Source: a virus. From it: a stretch of 22,011 nucleotides of DNA. Positions 6,793 through 21,502 of this stretch are shown here, piece by piece. Both the position numbers and the translations under genes were made by a program. The stretch's first letter is position 1, and every line of letters starts with the position of its first letter. Where the stretch lies: positions 1 to 22,011 of IMG/VR virus record IMGVR_UViG_3300018057_000045. One strand, given 5' to 3'. Under the pieces are notes generated by a model. That model searched no databases, was not told the origin of the DNA, and was given only the letters and a program-made list of their open reading frames with translations.

Positions 6793-7863
6793 TTACTGAA
6801 GCTCGTGTACGTGCTCGATGAGCGCGTCGGCGAGTGCGCGCTCTGCTCGCCAGCGTGCCCACCACGCCGTCTTCGCGGCCTTCGACGCCGCCGACCGGCG
6901 AGCCCGCGCTTCAGGCATTGCGGCTGTTGCCTTCAGCGACGCTGACCGCTTTTCTTGCACGTCTGGTCTGTTTTGCGAAACCTTTGAGCGTGCGGACTGT
7001 GCCGCTCGCGCTTCAGGTGTTGAGAACGCCGCCTTCATCGCCGCCGACCGCCGTTCACGCACCCCAGAGCCCGCCCAAGCCGCCTTCATCGCCGCCGACC
7101 GGCGAGCACGCGCTTCAGGTGTTGAGAATGCTGCCTTAAGCGACGCTATCCTGCGAGCGCGCTTCTCTGGGTCCGCCCACACAGCCTTCTGCGCCGACTG
7201 TCGGGTCTGCCGAGTCTTCCTGATGTGAACGCGCTTTGCGGGCTTCACAGGCGTCGGTTTGCGTTGGCGGTCCTTTCCCGATTGCATCTGTTGCCAAAGT
7301 TTGACAAGCTCAGACGCTATTTTGCGGATACTGCCGGGTGCAACTACGTTCCGCATTGCGACGGCGCACTCCTGCGACGACAGCCCGACGCGAAAATACC
7401 AGTGGACGATTCCACAAAGAATGACAGCGGCGTTTTTTGATATTGCCAACTCACCGTTGTATGTCTTGAGTCGCCGCTCAAGCGCGCTACAGCGCTCGGG
7501 AGAGCCGCCATTCATCTGGGCAGCAACACTGTTCCGCAGTGTGACGAGCGCGGGCCGGTCCTTATGAAGTTTCCTTTGCGCGAACCTGATGCGTTTTTCT
7601 GGGCTGTCGTTTCGTGGGCTGTAGATGCGTGCTCTTAATTCCATCGCGCGGGCGAGTAACAGCTTCAGTTCCGACACGTTCCCCGCGAACGACGGTGGCG
7701 TTTTGCGACCGTGGAACAGCTTATGGGTGTGGGTCTGCATCGCCGCTGCATCTTGAAAAGATAGTCCTGTGGTTTCAAAACCATCAGCGGTTGCATGTCC
7801 ATCAACGATGTGAGGTCGGTGACCAGCGAATTGGAACTCGTCAAAACTGGGTAGGGTTTGCAT
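6793..7863 (-). CDS. HTH-like segment plus six 17-residue NUMOD3-like repeats
   Basis: The product has 356 residues from the ATG at 7863 (a GTG at 7866 directly precedes it); no Shine-Dalgarno is visible at either. The N-terminal ~140 residues are not recognised. Residues ~145-195 look like a helix-turn-helix (IVHWYFRVGLSSQECAVAM, then a second helix) and resemble the C-terminal part of the protein encoded at 15462-16037. A basic linker with KRVHIRKTRQTRQ follows. From about residue 229 there are six consecutive 17-residue units of the type W-A-D-P-E-x-R-A-R-R-x-A-S-x-K-A-A or F-S-T-P-E-A-R-A-R-R-S-A-A-M-K-A-A. These resemble the NUMOD3-type DNA-binding motifs found in homing endonucleases, but no GIY-YIG, HNH or LAGLIDADG motif is visible. 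Sequence-specific DNA binding is the likely activity. The gene sits where tail-tip genes would be expected. Confidence 0.6.
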   Translation of the reverse strand: MQTLPSFDEFQFAGHRPHIVDGHATADGFETTGLSFQDAAAMQTHTHKLFHGRKTPPSFAGNVSELKLLLARAMELRARIYSPRNDSPEKRIRFAQRKLHKDRPALVTLRNSVAAQMNGGSPERCSALERRLKTYNGELAISKNAAVILCGIVHWYFRVGLSSQECAVAMRNVVAPGSIRKIASELVKLWQQMQSGKDRQRKPTPVKPAKRVHIRKTRQTRQSAQKAVWADPEKRARRIASLKAAFSTPEARARRSAAMKAAWAGSGVRERRSAAMKAAFSTPEARAAQSARSKVSQNRPDVQEKRSASLKATAAMPEARARRSAASKAAKTAWWARWRAERALADALIEHVHELQ

Positions 7864-7897
7864 CACAGTATCAGAAGAATGTGACGGGATACGATGA

Positions 7898-10329: not shown

Positions 10330-11514
10330 ATGAGCAGCAATCACGTGCTGGTCCGGAACGTTCCTCAAGACATTCGGCAATGGATTAGGAGAGAGAGACA
10401 ACGGGGTCAGATGTCGCAGCAGGAATTTATGCTATCGCTGCTGCAACAGGCGGTTCGCACGGAGTCCACACCACTCCTCCCGTTCAGCGACGAGCCGAGG
10501 GTAGAAGTCAATCCGGATGCGCTGCCTTTCAAGTTCATCGACCTGTTCGCGGGTATAGGGGGCTTTAGGACAGCTCTCACCAAGCTCGGCGGCCACTGCG
10601 TGTTCTCATCCGAGTGGGACCGATACTCACAAAAGACATATAAGGCGTGGTATGGCGAAACACCACATGGGGACATCACAAAAATCAGCCCCTCTGACAT
10701 TCCCGACCACGATGTACTCGCTGCGGGTTTTCCATGTCAGCCGTTCTCAATAGCGGGCGTCTCGAAGAAAAAGAGTTTGGGTCAGGCGCACGGCTTCAAG
10801 TGTGCAACGCAGGGCACTCTGTTCTTCAACGTAGCATCAATAATGGAGGTCAAGCGCCCGCCCATCGTTCTCCTTGAGAACGTCAAGAACCTTCAGTCGC
10901 ACGACAAAGGCCGCACGTGGAAGACAATCACCGAAGCACTAACGGAACTCAAATACGCCCTATTCAGTAAGGTTATTGACGCTGCCGCGTGGGTCCCCCA
11001 GCACCGGGAGCGCGTCTACATTGTATGCTTAGACAAGGGGGTCTTCGGCGACGACCCGCCCTTCTCGTTCCCGACTCCTCCAAGCAGCACGCCCAAGTTC
11101 AAGGACATCATGGATAAAAATCCCGAGCCGAAGTACACGTTGTCCAACCACCTTTGGAAGTATCTTCAGGAATATGCGGAGCACCACCGGGCGAAGGGGA
11201 ACGGCTTTGGGTTTGGGCTAGTTGACCTGAACGGAGTGTCGCGGACGCTGAGCGCTCGGTACTACAAAGATGGCTCCGAGATCCTGATACCCCAGCCGGG
11301 CAAGAACCCCCGACGCCTCACGCCGAAGGAGTGCCTCAGGCTCATGGGCTTCGATGAAAAGACTATCGTCGTGTCGGACACTCAGGCGTATCGCCAATTC
11401 GGAAACGCCGTAGTTCCAAAGGTCGCATACGCAGTCGGGCGACAACTCTTGGGCGTACTCCGCTGGCAGCTCACGCGAAAGGCGAATGGCTGTTTGGTGA
11501 AAGCAGTCGTGTGA
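10330..11514 (+). CDS. C5-cytosine DNA methyltransferase (EcoRII/Dcm type) with N-terminal ribbon-helix-helix domain
   Basis: A 394-residue methyltransferase. Residues ~5-43 (VLVRNVPQDIRQWIRRERQ, then MSQQEFMLSLLQQAV) look like a ribbon-helix-helix DNA-binding domain. The catalytic domain follows: motif I DLFAGIGGF at 71-79, motif IV PCQPFS at 135-140 with catalytic Cys136, motif VI ENV at 183-185, motif VIII QHRERV at 224-229, and motif X QFGNAVV at about 356-362. The target-recognition region lies between VIII and IX. It methylates cytosine at the 5 position, and the partner nuclease suggests CCWGG as the site. It leads an operon with the nuclease (6-base gap) and vsr. Repeats in the leader suggest autoregulation, as known for M.EcoRII and M.SsoII, although those use other N-terminal regions. 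Confidence 0.93.
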   Translation: MSSNHVLVRNVPQDIRQWIRRERQRGQMSQQEFMLSLLQQAVRTESTPLLPFSDEPRVEVNPDALPFKFIDLFAGIGGFRTALTKLGGHCVFSSEWDRYSQKTYKAWYGETPHGDITKISPSDIPDHDVLAAGFPCQPFSIAGVSKKKSLGQAHGFKCATQGTLFFNVASIMEVKRPPIVLLENVKNLQSHDKGRTWKTITEALTELKYALFSKVIDAAAWVPQHRERVYIVCLDKGVFGDDPPFSFPTPPSSTPKFKDIMDKNPEPKYTLSNHLWKYLQEYAEHHRAKGNGFGFGLVDLNGVSRTLSARYYKDGSEILIPQPGKNPRRLTPKECLRLMGFDEKTIVVSDTQAYRQFGNAVVPKVAYAVGRQLLGVLRWQLTRKANGCLVKAVV

Positions 11515-11520
11515 GCCGAG

Positions 11521-12690
11521 ATGGCGACACCTACTGGAGAGCGCGCAATCTCGGATGCGTTGCGAGTCGGCAACGCCATCTTGAAGTTCATTTCGGCAAA
11601 TGACGTCGGCAGAACAGGCGGTCATCAGTGCGGCTACTATTTACCAAAGCCTGTCTGGGAGATGTTCACCGAACACCCGCCAACAAGAGGCCGGAACGAC
11701 GAGACTGAAGTTGAAGTGCAGTGGCAAGACGGACGCATAACGCAGTCACGGGTGAAATGGTATGGCAAGGCCAAGACCGAATACAGGTTGACGCGGTTCG
11801 GCAGGGATTTTCCATTCCTGACCCACGATAACGTAGGTGACCTGCTCGTCCTCATCCCGGTAGACCACAGGCATTTCATTGCATACGTGCTTGACCTCGA
11901 AGACGACATTGAGGACATCGAGGCTGCGCTCGGTGTCGAGATCATCGCTTCGTGGGCTGCGTTCAGGAACGGATCTCCCCAGCTTCCCCCTGAAGACGAG
12001 GAGGAATGTATTGACCGCAGGTTCAGGCACTTCGCCGAGACGCTGCGGCAGTTTCCAAGCGGTGCTGCGTTTTCCGAAGAGGCTCGTGCCACGCTGGAAG
12101 CATGTGTGCAGGCCTTCGCTAACATGCGGTCGGACGACGCCCTGATACGGTGTATGGACGCGGAGTACAGGCTGTTTCGCGTTGCCGAGCGTCAGGTGTG
12201 CGGTCCAGAGATTTCCCGCTTGTTCCGAGACGTAGATGACTTCCTCACTACGGCGTCCAGCATAATGAACAGGCGCAAGGCGCGCGCGGGAAGGTCACTG
12301 GAAAACCACGTCGAGTATGTTCTCAATAAAGCGCAGATACCCCATGTGATGCGTCCCAATGTTGACGGAAGACCTGACGTTCTGATCCCGAGCGTCGAGG
12401 CTTACAGGGATGCGGCGTACCCGGTGGATAGACTGATCGTGGTCGGCATTAAGACGACGTGCAAGGACAGATGGCGGCAAATTCTCAACGAAGCGCAGCG
12501 AGTGCCACACAAGCACATATTGACCATTCAACAGGGAATCTCTTCGAACCAACTTGGAGAGATGCACCGTGCGAACGTCACGCTCGTCGTTCCAAGGAGC
12601 ATCCAGCGCCAATACCCGAGCGGAAGCGGGATAACAATGTGGGACGTGGAAGAGTTCATCGGCAAGGTTCGAAGGATGCTTGAAGCATGA
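11521..12690 (+). CDS. EcoRII-type restriction endonuclease (predicted CCWGG)
   Basis: The 389-residue length is close to that of R.EcoRII. The N-terminal domain carries FISANDVGRTGGHQCGYYLPK at residues ~23-43, the EcoRII N-domain signature, which serves as an effector-site DNA-binding barrel. The C-terminal domain (from about residue 250) has RAGRSLENHVEYVL, GRPDVLIPS at 283-291 (PD at 285-286) and VVGIKTTCKDRWRQ with the catalytic Lys311. It then has HKHILTIQQGIS and a closing VTLVVP, matching EcoRII-C throughout. EcoRII is a type IIE enzyme that needs two copies of CCWGG. Upstream is the methyltransferase, and vsr overlaps the end by 4 bases. The Shine-Dalgarno is weak, so translational coupling is likely. 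Confidence 0.93.
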   Translation: MATPTGERAISDALRVGNAILKFISANDVGRTGGHQCGYYLPKPVWEMFTEHPPTRGRNDETEVEVQWQDGRITQSRVKWYGKAKTEYRLTRFGRDFPFLTHDNVGDLLVLIPVDHRHFIAYVLDLEDDIEDIEAALGVEIIASWAAFRNGSPQLPPEDEEECIDRRFRHFAETLRQFPSGAAFSEEARATLEACVQAFANMRSDDALIRCMDAEYRLFRVAERQVCGPEISRLFRDVDDFLTTASSIMNRRKARAGRSLENHVEYVLNKAQIPHVMRPNVDGRPDVLIPSVEAYRDAAYPVDRLIVVGIKTTCKDRWRQILNEAQRVPHKHILTIQQGISSNQLGEMHRANVTLVVPRSIQRQYPSGSGITMWDVEEFIGKVRRMLEA

Positions 12691-13103
12691 CCGACGTTCT
12701 CACGCGCGAGCAGCGTCGCTTCAACATGGCGCAAATAAAGAGCAAGAACACGCGCCCTGAGATGATGGTCAGGACTCTGCTCCATGCGCTTGGGTACAGA
12801 TTCAGGTTGCACGTTCAAAAAATGGCGGGACGCCCTGATGTGGTACTTCCAAAGTTCAAAGCCGTCATTTTCGTTCACGGTTGCTTCTGGCACATGCATC
12901 ACTGCAAGTTTGGGAAGGTCGTGCCAAAGACAAACGCCCAGTTCTGGCAAATCAAGAGGATGGCCAACGTTGAACGCGACAAGCGACAGCGCAAAGCTCT
13001 GCGTAAAGACTGGTCAGTCCTTACGGTTTGGGAGTGTGAAACGCGGAACCCTGATAGTCTTGGCCGGAAGCTCCGGCACTTTCTCGAAGGTCGGAAAAAG
13101 TGA
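12687..13103 (+). CDS. vsr: Vsr very short patch repair endonuclease
   Basis: The 138-residue protein shows every Vsr hallmark: RRFNMAQIKSKNTRPE, AGRPDVVLPKFKAVIFVHGCFWHMHHC, FWQIKRMANVERD and LTVWECE. Its numbering coincides with E. coli Vsr for Asp51, His64 and His69; Cys66, His71, Cys73 and the Cys of WECE would hold the structural zinc. Vsr nicks 5' of the T in T:G mismatches made by deamination of 5-methylcytosine in CCWGG contexts, so it protects the sites its methyltransferase modifies. The start overlaps the endonuclease stop (ATGA). Its presence supports a CCWGG-type specificity for the system. Confidence 0.97.
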   Translation: MTDVLTREQRRFNMAQIKSKNTRPEMMVRTLLHALGYRFRLHVQKMAGRPDVVLPKFKAVIFVHGCFWHMHHCKFGKVVPKTNAQFWQIKRMANVERDKRQRKALRKDWSVLTVWECETRNPDSLGRKLRHFLEGRKK

Positions 13104-13533: not shown

Positions 13534-14346
13534 ATGGCGCGGGAGACACCAGCAGAGATTGAGCTTCGAAAGGCGATGTCCGCTATCGGCCATAGAACGT
13601 GGTCGAAAAAGGAACTTAGAGAGCTATTCTCGGTGGTTTTATCGGTTGCCTTCACGAACGCTTCAGACCTATCTGAAGTGATGCTGGCAGCGTGGGCTGT
13701 TCCTGAGTTCAGGAACATGTTCATCGCAGAAATAAGAGCGGCATGGGCCGACCCTACCCTCAGAGCGCGGTTCGCAACTGCAATGAAGGCAATGTGGGCC
13801 GACCCTGAATATCGTGCCCGACAGTCGGCGGGGATGAAGAAGCCTGAAACTCGGGCACGACTGTCGGAAGGGCAGAAAAAGACATGGGCCGATCCTGAAT
13901 ATCGTGCCAGACAGTCGGCAGCGCAGACAGAGGCGTGGGCACGCCCTGAGCACAGAGAACAAGCGGTGAAAGCAATGGCGGCGGTTTGGGCCGACCCAAT
14001 AATAAGAAGCAAAATAATAGCAGCCATGAACACAGCCGAGGCGAAGGTTAAAAGGGTGGCGGCGTGCAAAGAGGCGTGGGCACGACGGTCGGAGGAGGCC
14101 AAAGCAAAGTCTCGTACCAGACTGACGGCTCTGTCGAGAAGGAATGCCGCTGACCCTGAACAGTGCGCCCGACGGTCGGCGTCGGCGAAGGAGCGGTTAG
14201 CTGACCCTGAACAGCGTGCCCGACTGTCGGACTCGGTGCGCAAGAAATGGGCCGACCCTGAATATCGTGCCCGACACGCGGCGGGGTGCAAAGAGGCGGC
14301 GCGCCGGAAGGTAGAGAAGGCAATGGCCGCGAAGGCAGGGAAGTGA
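13534..14346 (+). CDS. Tandem 17-residue (WADPE) repeat protein, NUMOD3-like
   Basis: The 270-residue protein has GGAGGA 10 bases before its ATG. After ~53 unrecognised N-terminal residues, almost all of it is an array of about eleven units with the consensus W-A-D-P-E-x-R-A-R-x-S-A-A-x-K-x-x. Most are 17 residues long; a few are shortened (for example PETRARLSEGQKKT) or interrupted near residues 170-205. The units are close to those of the product at 6793-7863 and resemble NUMOD3-type helices of homing endonucleases. No nuclease motif is present. The product is strongly basic, so binding to DNA along a groove is likely. It lies exactly between the 37-bp direct repeats, the right copy starting at the last base of its stop codon. 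The antisense frame is open only because of the repeats. Confidence 0.65.
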   Translation: MARETPAEIELRKAMSAIGHRTWSKKELRELFSVVLSVAFTNASDLSEVMLAAWAVPEFRNMFIAEIRAAWADPTLRARFATAMKAMWADPEYRARQSAGMKKPETRARLSEGQKKTWADPEYRARQSAAQTEAWARPEHREQAVKAMAAVWADPIIRSKIIAAMNTAEAKVKRVAACKEAWARRSEEAKAKSRTRLTALSRRNAADPEQCARRSASAKERLADPEQRARLSDSVRKKWADPEYRARHAAGCKEAARRKVEKAMAAKAGK

Positions 14347-17746: not shown

Positions 17747-18202
17747 ATGGACGCAGCACGCTACACAATCACGCCCGCTGACAGACCCTTTCTTTTGCAC
17801 GCACTGTCGGCATGGAAAACCCTCCACCATTGCGAACTTGACAAGTCACAACTTCTGACTTGGTTAGAGCGCTACCCGAAACCAGATATTTTGCACGCGT
17901 TTGAGATAGTGCAGGTATGGGCTGACGAGCGGAAGCCTTCAGAGACGTGCTATCTGCTGCGAGCCAAGTATGCAAACGGCGTACTGCGCGCTCGCGCACA
18001 ACATCTCAATAAATGGAATGAGCTTTTTGCGTCGAAGGATGCTCCGACAATCTCGTTGACCCTTGAACAAGCGGAAATCGTTTTGCAGGAGCTTTCCGTT
18101 TCCGCGCCGATTTTCGGTGATGGTCACGACGCAAAAAAACACGCCGCACTTCTCATGCCGATTCGAGAGGCACTTATTCAGCAGATTGAAGAGGTGCAGT
18201 GA
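17747..18202 (+). CDS. Hypothetical early protein, 151 residues
   Basis: AAAGGAG precedes the ATG. The product has an aromatic, helical N-terminal part (RPFLLHALSAWKTLHHCE, LLTWLERYPKPDILHAFEIV), a middle with CYLLRAKYANGVLRARAQHLNKWNELF, and a C-terminal LTLEQAEIVLQEL helix. It has no recognised family. Its stop overlaps the start of the replication-initiator-like gene by one base (TGATG), so it may work with it. The spacer before it holds two imperfect AGCCGGG repeats. Confidence 0.6.
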   Translation: MDAARYTITPADRPFLLHALSAWKTLHHCELDKSQLLTWLERYPKPDILHAFEIVQVWADERKPSETCYLLRAKYANGVLRARAQHLNKWNELFASKDAPTISLTLEQAEIVLQELSVSAPIFGDGHDAKKHAALLMPIREALIQQIEEVQ

Positions 18203-19176
18203 TGACTGAAGAACTTGAGCAACTTGCACCCGACGGCTTTGTGATGATTCGGAATGGAATCCGCGAGCACATAGAGGGTGGAAGATTGACGGGCTACGCG
18301 CTCGGCGTTTACTTCTACTTGCACTTGACCTGTACATGGAAGACTGGCATCTGCTACACGAACGCGGTCGCTATCGGAAATGTGCTGAATATTCCAACAC
18401 GAAGCGTCAATGACGCGCTCCTTAGACTGCGGGAGCAGGGTTACATCAGCTATCCAGCAGGTCACGGGCAGCGTGGGAGTTACGCCGTACTCATTCACAA
18501 ATATCGCTGTACGGTCGGCGCGTTGAGGGGTTATGAGCTAAACGCTTTTGCTGATAACAACTTCGAGACGGTGACCTATGACCACCCGGACGGTGGCCGC
18601 GTGGTGGCCGCGTGGAAGCCGCGTGCTGACCGCGCGGAGACCGCGTTGATGGTGCGTGGTGGCCGCGTGCTGACCGCGTGTATTCAAGACAGTAAAGACT
18701 GTTACAAGCCCGCTGCAAGCGTAGAAGAAAGGCCAGACGGTCAAGCCAGCCAAGCCAGCCAGCCAAGAGAACCGCGTTCGGAAAACGAAAACGGCGGGCC
18801 GGCGGGCGGGAGCTTGTCTTTGAATCTTGGGGTTAGCACCCCAAGCCCGCTTAGAGCAACACCAACACCCGCTGGCCATGAGAAGGACAAGGGCAACACC
18901 GATGAAGAGCGCTGGAAGCACTTCATCGCTGACACCAAGGGCGGACTGCCAGATTCAATGAAGTACTCCATACCAAAGCTAGAAACAATTCCCTTGGTAT
19001 TGGCGAGAGCGAATGCTCAGAAGAGCAGTAGGTACAACACAAAAGCGGAATCCTTAGCGATGGGCATCAGTGATTGGGCAGAAGGCAGAAGTCCGTCGCT
19101 GGATGGATTGAAATGCTTTCGATGGGAAGCGTGGCTAAAAGAAACAGAAACGGAGTTCACAAAATTAACCAACTAA
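18202..19176 (+). CDS. Winged-helix replication initiator-like protein
   Basis: The 324-residue product starts at an ATG overlapping the preceding stop; a GTG at 18199 is the only alternative nearby. Residues ~25-95 form a winged helix: TGYALGVYFYLHLTCTWKTG, IGNVLNIPTRSVNDALLRLREQGYI, then the wing GHGQRGSYAVLIHKY. A low-complexity, probably disordered linker follows (residues ~130-235, rich in R, G, S, P, A, with QASQASQPREPRSENENGG). A conserved-looking C-terminal helical domain contains GDxxDWAEG-like ISDWAEGRSPSLDG and FRWEAWLKETE. This plan matches lambda O / RepO-type initiators, including eight 11-bp repeats inside the coding sequence. No helicase or loader gene is recognised after it. 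Confidence 0.68.
   Translation: MTEELEQLAPDGFVMIRNGIREHIEGGRLTGYALGVYFYLHLTCTWKTGICYTNAVAIGNVLNIPTRSVNDALLRLREQGYISYPAGHGQRGSYAVLIHKYRCTVGALRGYELNAFADNNFETVTYDHPDGGRVVAAWKPRADRAETALMVRGGRVLTACIQDSKDCYKPAASVEERPDGQASQASQPREPRSENENGGPAGGSLSLNLGVSTPSPLRATPTPAGHEKDKGNTDEERWKHFIADTKGGLPDSMKYSIPKLETIPLVLARANAQKSSRYNTKAESLAMGISDWAEGRSPSLDGLKCFRWEAWLKETETEFTKLTN
18593..18680 (+). repeat. Eight tandem 11-bp units, candidate origin iterons
   Basis: Units of exactly 11 bp run without gaps: GTGGCCGCGTG (units 1, 2, 7), GAAGCCGCGTG, CTGACCGCGCG, GAGACCGCGTT, GATGGTGCGTG and CTGACCGCGTG. The consensus is close to GTGRCCGCGTG. The period is not a multiple of three, so the encoded peptide is not repetitive and the constraint must be on the DNA; 11 bp is about one helical turn. 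A patch with ACAGT-AAAG-ACTGT follows. The position inside the initiator gene parallels lambda ori in O. Confidence 0.8.
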
Positions 19177-20130: not shown

Positions 20131-21402
20131 GTGCCCGCATTATCCGAACCTTTGACCACCGAGTTGCTGCCCTGCCCGCCCAACGGTACCATTGCGACCG
20201 CGACGACGATACGGCGGAAAAGGGGACCATCCTTGAGCCGTCGTACAGGACAAAGTGGTAGCGTGTTCCAACAGAATCAAAACTCGTGGAATCCAGCAGC
20301 ACCCGCTTATGGTCGCTTCTGGGTTGACTCTCCGGAGGGCCGAAAGCGCCGGGTAATTTCGCTGGGCGTGTGCACCACGCGCACCGTTGCCAAGCGAAAA
20401 CTCCGCGAGCACATCGAATCCGAGGGCGTCAATTCCGCAGCGACCCTCATTTCAACCACAACACCGGGTACGACTTTCCGCGAACAGGCAAAGCGGTGGA
20501 TTGCTTCGCTTGCCACGCGCCGTCGTCGTCCGGTCAAACCCGCCACGATTTTTGGCTGGCAGCACGCACTGGACAAATGGATTCTCCCGACCCTCGGTGA
20601 TAAGCCAGTGGCCGATGTTTCCAATGCCGCGCTCAAGCTGCTACTCGAAACGATGGCGGCTGGCGGGCTGTCCGCAAAGACAATCGTGAACTACGCGCAG
20701 GTTCCAAAGATGGTGGTCGCGTCGGTAGTCACCGCCGAGGGGGAGCAAGTTTACCCGCGAACATGGAACCACGATTTCATGGGGCTGCCCATCATTGATC
20801 CAAACAAACAGCACCGGCCTACCGTGACCGAGACGGAAGTTGGTGCTCTTACAACCAGTGCCGCGTATCGTTTCGCGGTCCTGTTCGCCTTGCTTGCAGG
20901 TGCCGGATTGCGGGCGGGTGAGGCCCTTGCGGTTAAGGCGACCGACTTCTCGTCAGATTTTCGCGTGCTTCATGTGACGCGTTCCATCTGGCACGGTCTG
21001 GAGCAGGACCCCAAGACACCGGCGGCAATCCGCGAAGTGGACATCGCGGAGCCGCTGGCCGCATTGCTGCGGGTGTACGCGGAAGGCAGGACCGGATACT
21101 TGTTCGCCACGCGGAGCGGGCGACCGGTTGCTCAGCGGAACGTACACCGGGCAGCCGGTGTTGGCCTTCACGCGTTTCGGCGATTCCGTACCGAGACTCT
21201 TCGCCGGGCGCGCGTGCCGGAGGACCTCATCGCATTGTGGCTTGGGCACGCGCCCAAGTCGGTGACTGACCTCTACGCGGGCGGGTTGCAGCATGACCTA
21301 GCTTGGCGGCGTGAATGGTGCGACCGCGTCGGGCTTGGTTTTTCAGTTGGGCTAATTGGGGCTAGAAACAACGCGCCACTTGCGTTGCAGAAAGCCGCGT
21401 AA
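20131..21402 (+). CDS. int: Tyrosine-recombinase integrase
   Basis: The 423-residue protein starts at a GTG with AAGGAG upstream. The N-terminal half has a short arm-binding-like segment (WNPAAPAYGRFWVDSPEGRK, RVISLGVCTTRTVAKRKLRE) and a SAM-like core-binding domain (TTFREQAKRWIASL…WILPTLGDKPVADVS). The catalytic domain holds Arg261 in GAGLRAGEAL, Lys295 in the DPKT hairpin, HAFR with His347 and Arg350, LGH with His373, and Tyr382 in VTDLYAGG, so all catalytic residues are present. It ends 25 bases from the tRNA-Asn 3' end. It would integrate and excise the prophage there. The spacer 19905-20130 has no recognisable gene. Confidence 0.93.
   Translation: MPALSEPLTTELLPCPPNGTIATATTIRRKRGPSLSRRTGQSGSVFQQNQNSWNPAAPAYGRFWVDSPEGRKRRVISLGVCTTRTVAKRKLREHIESEGVNSAATLISTTTPGTTFREQAKRWIASLATRRRRPVKPATIFGWQHALDKWILPTLGDKPVADVSNAALKLLLETMAAGGLSAKTIVNYAQVPKMVVASVVTAEGEQVYPRTWNHDFMGLPIIDPNKQHRPTVTETEVGALTTSAAYRFAVLFALLAGAGLRAGEALAVKATDFSSDFRVLHVTRSIWHGLEQDPKTPAAIREVDIAEPLAALLRVYAEGRTGYLFATRSGRPVAQRNVHRAAGVGLHAFRRFRTETLRRARVPEDLIALWLGHAPKSVTDLYAGGLQHDLAWRREWCDRVGLGFSVGLIGARNNAPLALQKAA

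Positions 21403-21427: not shown

Positions 21428-21502
<75 letters not shown>

Follow-up and report, generated by a model that had tools for sequence, protein, structure and literature searches.

The virus record IMGVR_UViG_3300018057_000045 comprises 22,011 bases (the whole stretch analysed, referred to here as the window), with tail genes on its left and an integrase gene and a tRNA on its right. The features that bear on the proposed origin and its setting are:

18199..19176, + strand: replication-initiator-like gene, 325 aa (weak PHROG matches, a homolog in the related phage contig G003, family profile matches)
18199..18579, + strand: part coding the DNA-binding domain, predicted to be a winged helix (block conserved across the eight homologs)
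18593..18680, + strand: eight abutting 11-bp iterons with core CCGCGTG, the proposed initiator-binding array of a phage origin
18681..18720, + strand: stretch of modest AT enrichment following the array on its 3' side, a weak candidate for an unwinding element
20131..21402, + strand: tyrosine integrase gene, prophage context (Pfam Phage_integrase above cut-off; phrog_1, 4e-28)
21428-21502: tRNA-Asn, directly after the integrase gene

As the tyrosine integrase gene adjoins the tRNA-Asn gene, this side of the record is likely an integrated prophage end. The tRNA-Asn is likely the attachment site of the prophage, and the final 500 bases of the record are therefore probably host DNA. Pfam and PHROGs scans recognised no helicase loader among the neighbour genes scanned. 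The phage also carries a restriction-modification cassette (10330-13103) made up of a C5 cytosine methylase, an EcoRII-like endonuclease with N and C domains and a Vsr mismatch endonuclease, all above Pfam cut-offs, and a family 2 glycosyltransferase gene (1907-2593) lies inside the tail/head module. Two similar proteins (6793-7866, - strand; 13534-14346, + strand) consist of short 'ADPEYRARQSA'-like repeats and have no Pfam match above cut-off; the first of these genes contains a 51-bp tandem repeat at 7007-7137.

The 325-aa protein matched no Pfam family at cut-off, and the RepA_N domain (PF06970) gave no match up to E 1. A PDB sequence search returned nothing useful, and AlphaFold models (pLDDT 35-36) were too poor for use. 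Weak matches were obtained to PHROG 270/186/678/2880 (E 0.004-0.02), mostly replication initiation or loader families. The replication initiation family phrog_270 is matched by the N-terminal domains of seven of the eight family members, at E 0.0045 for the window protein, 1.7e-4 for G003 and 2.9e-7 for the best relative. The preliminary description of this DNA had called the gene initiator-like, and these family-wide matches bear this out, with the window protein alone at about 0.004. Alignments divide the protein into a conserved N-terminal domain (approximately aa 1-127), which we infer to fold as a winged helix, a linker (approximately aa 130-230) and a C-terminal domain (approximately aa 230-325). 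They also place the array in the unconserved linker after the N-terminal block, where a linker-coding position had been thought probable.

The eight gapless 11-bp units and their period, as first described, were confirmed, and Tandem Repeats Finder returned the same array (period 11, 8.1 copies). The units begin at 18593, 18604, 18615, 18626, 18637, 18648, 18659 and 18670 and read, in order, GTGGCCGCGTG, GTGGCCGCGTG, GAAGCCGCGTG, CTGACCGCGCG, GAGACCGCGTT, GATGGTGCGTG, GTGGCCGCGTG and CTGACCGCGTG. Five of the eight carry the CCGCGTG core unchanged; units 4 and 5 each depart from it at one base and unit 6 at two. The array matches its consensus at 74 of 88 bases, and no other 11-bp window of the 22 kb exceeds 57%. 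Dinucleotide shuffles of the gene (n=300) gave a maximum match of 51 against the observed 74, whereas synonymous-codon shuffles that keep the protein (n=1000) gave a mean of 56 and a maximum of 66, which indicates that codon choice adds something beyond the protein. The repeat array is a real, non-random feature. The selection at the DNA level that had been proposed is thus upheld by the synonymous shuffles, but the accompanying statement that the peptide is not repetitive needs correction, since identity at a lag of 33 bp (11 aa) is 73% and the peptide is partly repetitive. Similarly, the spacing is close to one helical turn, but 11 bp slightly exceeds the 10.5 bp of a turn, so that the cores drift by approximately 120 degrees around the helix over eight units and do not all lie on exactly one face, as had been claimed.

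The 40 bp 3' of the array contain 55% AT compared with 46% for the gene, which places them at the 92nd percentile of the gene but is modest in absolute terms; in stability, it ranks within the lowest 3% of 50-bp windows. GC skew, which had been put forward as a check, shows no turn at the array site and is uninformative here.

Direct searches with the window protein yielded no homolog among viral contigs, genome contigs or annotated phages, and the gene upstream of it likewise led to none. Relatives were instead reached via a tail protein, which led to related phage contigs and to G003, followed by profile searches. The G003 homolog has 38% identity to the window protein. A two-sequence profile (window and G003) recovered two Acidobacteriota homologs (1.3e-20 and 8.5e-18), and a four-sequence profile recovered further ones. 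We compared the arrays of eight homologs (G003, L125, L126, L218, L219, L220, L221 and L222), most of which come from genome contigs and may not all represent intact prophages. The C-terminal part is common to the window and G003 only and is different in L125 and L126, and the linker peptide under the array is not conserved between homologs. In all eight, an iteron array lies at the same place, just after the conserved N-terminal block, each with a different unit. The period is 11 bp in five, 12 bp in two and 31/32 bp in one:

G003: 11-bp period, unit TTGAAGTGANG, five copies
L125: 11-bp period, unit GACCGTGCTGA, five copies
L126: 11-bp period, unit CAGCGACACCT, three copies plus inverted copies
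L219: 11-bp period, unit CCGTCTTGAAG, nine units, gene broken
L220: 11-bp period, unit GGTGAAGGAAC
L218 and L222: 12-bp period
L221: 20-bp unit present three times, at spacings of 31 and 32 bp, recognised by eye

ACCG-type cores are common to the window and L125 units; otherwise the unit sequences differ between homologs. Relatives with the same gene and no repeat at this position would have spoken against an origin here; the homologs examined all have an array, mostly of the same period. In a related phage (G002; L025, 4129-4250) the corresponding place is taken by 23-bp iterons (CGCARATTGCGAG) within another initiator gene, and initiator and array therefore seem to be exchanged as a module between related phages.

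Matches to the CCGCGTG pattern in other genomes were considered as relatives and rejected except for L063; they are mostly slippage-like arrays in high-GC genomes. One match in a tape-measure gene (L006) looks like chance, and another (L003) is close to an unrelated gene. Two Bacteroidales genomes (L051, L075 and L114; L065, L071 and L090) each contain several separate CCGCGTGATTW-like arrays with 11-bp spacing, mostly outside long ORFs. A phage contig (L005, 9080-9200) has a longer, irregular 11-bp array of TAGTCCGCGTG over a short ORF.

Array periods were surveyed in 84 initiator-type ORFs drawn from family profiles and in 226 control phage ORFs. The window was left out, as was L063, which had been found through its array. 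The longest ORF over a profile match was taken as the gene, and phrog_270 may also have drawn in some helix-turn-helix proteins of a general kind. Arrays with z>4 were found in 13 of the 84 genes at period 11, 12 at period 12, 10 at period 22, seven at period 23 and eight at period 24, where a gene may be counted both at a period and at twice that period, and periods 12, 15 and 18 partly reflect protein low complexity. Neighbouring periods such as 13, 17, 19, 20, 25 and 26 occur in one or two of the 84, and at each of the periods 11, 12, 22, 23 and 24 between none and two of the 226 control ORFs have an array. A simpler count of best periods, confined to those not divisible by three, also separates initiator-type from control ORFs (Fisher 3e-13). 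The in-gene arrays of initiator-type genes prefer one-turn (11-12 bp) and two-turn (22-24 bp) periods. PF09681 proteins of Bacilli have no clean 11-bp array by the survey score, with GTAACG motifs at 10-12 bp steps visible by eye.

With hand-picked units, dyad symmetry at or near the 5% level was present in none of 13 one-turn arrays versus six of nine two-turn arrays (L140, L180, L137, L164, L144 and L134, five of them below 0.05); the seventh-ranked, G002 (0.08), was left out of the clear cases. The arrays may thus fall into two classes, asymmetric at one-turn spacing and palindromic at two-turn spacing, which is a lead rather than a proof. The 40 bp that follow the array on its 3' side are AT-rich at or above the 80th percentile of the gene in nine of 11 array-bearing genes, and this flank is absent in L126 and Tuc2009.

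Several replication systems also carry repeats inside the initiator gene. The closest precedents of the window array are Tuc2009 rep/ori2009 and r1t orf11. In Tuc2009, the annotation of rep reads 'contains origin of replication', and the gene has four units of 11 bp (nnnnCAACCAA) that abut each other at aa 112; r1t orf11 likewise has four abutting units of this length (nnnnnGGAACC), at aa 104. The organizers of Tuc2009 and TP901-1 bind direct repeats in their own genes, and these repeats serve as ori (PMC8965321); by the survey score TP901-1 has no clear 11-bp array. As in the window gene, the abutting direct repeats of Tuc2009 and r1t follow right after the part coding the N-terminal domain, and their 11-bp units are putative bound sites. 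These lactococcal phages differ in that neither protein nor unit has detected homology to those of the window, their hosts are low-GC, and they have four units compared with eight; Tuc2009 also has AGGATAG-type repeats 3' of its array.

The resemblance to the lambda origin within O that had been proposed holds for the mid-gene layout, with iterons between the N- and C-terminal parts and an AT-rich region on one side (PMC7466680). However, lambda is not the nearest parallel, because its origin is of the two-turn kind: its 18-bp iterons are annotated 20, 24 and 23 bp apart, approximately two turns, whereas the window units are abutting 11-bp repeats without dyad symmetry, nearer to those of Tuc2009 and r1t. 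In plasmid pSK41, whose Rep protein is of the RepA_N family, the origin contains four Rep boxes and lies in the middle of rep, in a part coding a dispensable linker; the N-terminal winged helix of Rep binds and its C-terminal domain recruits host factors (PMC5703833). The linker-coding position is alike, but the window protein has no RepA_N match, and RepA_N iterons are described as semi-palindromic (PMC7145576). The SPP1 gene 38 initiator binds direct repeats within its own gene beside an AT-rich element, with oriL in gene 38 (PMC6316719); the likeness of these repeats to the window array is drawn from the published description.

Taken with the homologs, eight of eight of which have an array, the best-supported reading is the one put forward in the preliminary description, a candidate phage origin in the initiator gene. 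We consider it very probable that the array serves a theta-type phage origin as its initiator-binding part, acting through binding, melting and helicase recruitment. Each of these steps, and origin activity itself, is inferred from the sequence. The predicted winged-helix N-terminal domain would bind as monomers arranged head to tail, with one monomer on each 11-bp unit and so on each helical turn, placed such that the bound monomers sit on roughly one face of the DNA. This nucleoprotein array would strain and open the AT-richer DNA on its 3' side, and the C-terminal domain would then recruit a helicase, from host or phage. Because the coded part is only a flexible linker, the DNA under the array would be free to evolve as a binding array, in which the spacing is held and the unit sequence co-drifts with the protein. 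The further suggestion that this is a compact type of origin is apt for the one-turn kind, but this kind is not new, as Tuc2009 and r1t already represent it.

Other origins of the repeat were weighed. A functionless minisatellite produced by slippage would fit the many slippage-like CCGCGTG 11-bp arrays found in high-GC bacterial genomes outside initiator genes. Those arrays are, however, mostly near-identical copies, while the window units are diverged; homologs have other unit sequences at the same place and with the same period, and control ORFs almost never contain such arrays. We therefore regard this explanation as improbable. Selection on a peptide repeat could account for the faint 11-aa period seen in the 73% identity at lag 33, but the signal is lost in synonymous shuffles (mean 56, maximum 66 against 74), the peptide is not conserved between homologs, and the period in many cases is 11 or 22 bp, which is not a multiple of three; this seems extremely unlikely. 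A fixed place and helical spacing with changing unit sequence argue against slippage and peptide selection alike.

Autoregulation by an initiator bound to its own iterons is common, and the data point to selection for binding geometry without indicating its use. The array might thus be a regulatory site for the initiator or another phage regulator rather than the origin itself, which we hold to be unlikely. It lies approximately 400 bp inside the gene rather than at a promoter. Tandem repeats of 10-11 bp are also the targets of ParR-type proteins, and direct repeats at one-turn spacing are therefore not confined to origins. A partition site, or centromere, built of 11-bp repeats and occupied by a ParR-like protein with a ribbon-helix-helix fold can thus be envisaged. 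There is scarcely any likelihood of this: all homologs have the array within the initiator gene, the element, with its integrase gene beside a tRNA gene, is a prophage, and the neighbour genes scanned with Pfam and PHROGs gave no ParM/ParR match, a negative scan of weak weight. Against the regulatory reading, arrays of this embedded sort act as origins in Tuc2009, TP901-1, SPP1, lambda and pSK41 (PMC8965321, PMC6316719, PMC7466680, PMC5703833).

The origin reading provides a concrete candidate in a group of phages that has been little studied and has homologs in Acidobacteriota. In-gene origin arrays would be recognisable by one- or two-turn spacing at a linker-coding position even where protein and unit sequences have diverged far. 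A wider rule, which we judge equally likely to hold or to fail, is that one-turn in-gene origins are asymmetric and bound by head-to-tail monomers, two-turn origins are palindromic and bound by dimers, three turns occur rarely, and a family retains its spacing while the unit turns over. No statement of the one-turn/two-turn pattern was found in the literature searched, which did not include Weigel and Seitz 2006 (the FEMS review where it would most be expected), and the generality of the spacing rule may be new. If the rule is true, spacing and not sequence would be the conserved mark of in-gene origins and could be used to find them, and the oligomeric state of an initiator would be predictable from DNA alone, with one turn implying a monomer and two turns a dimer.
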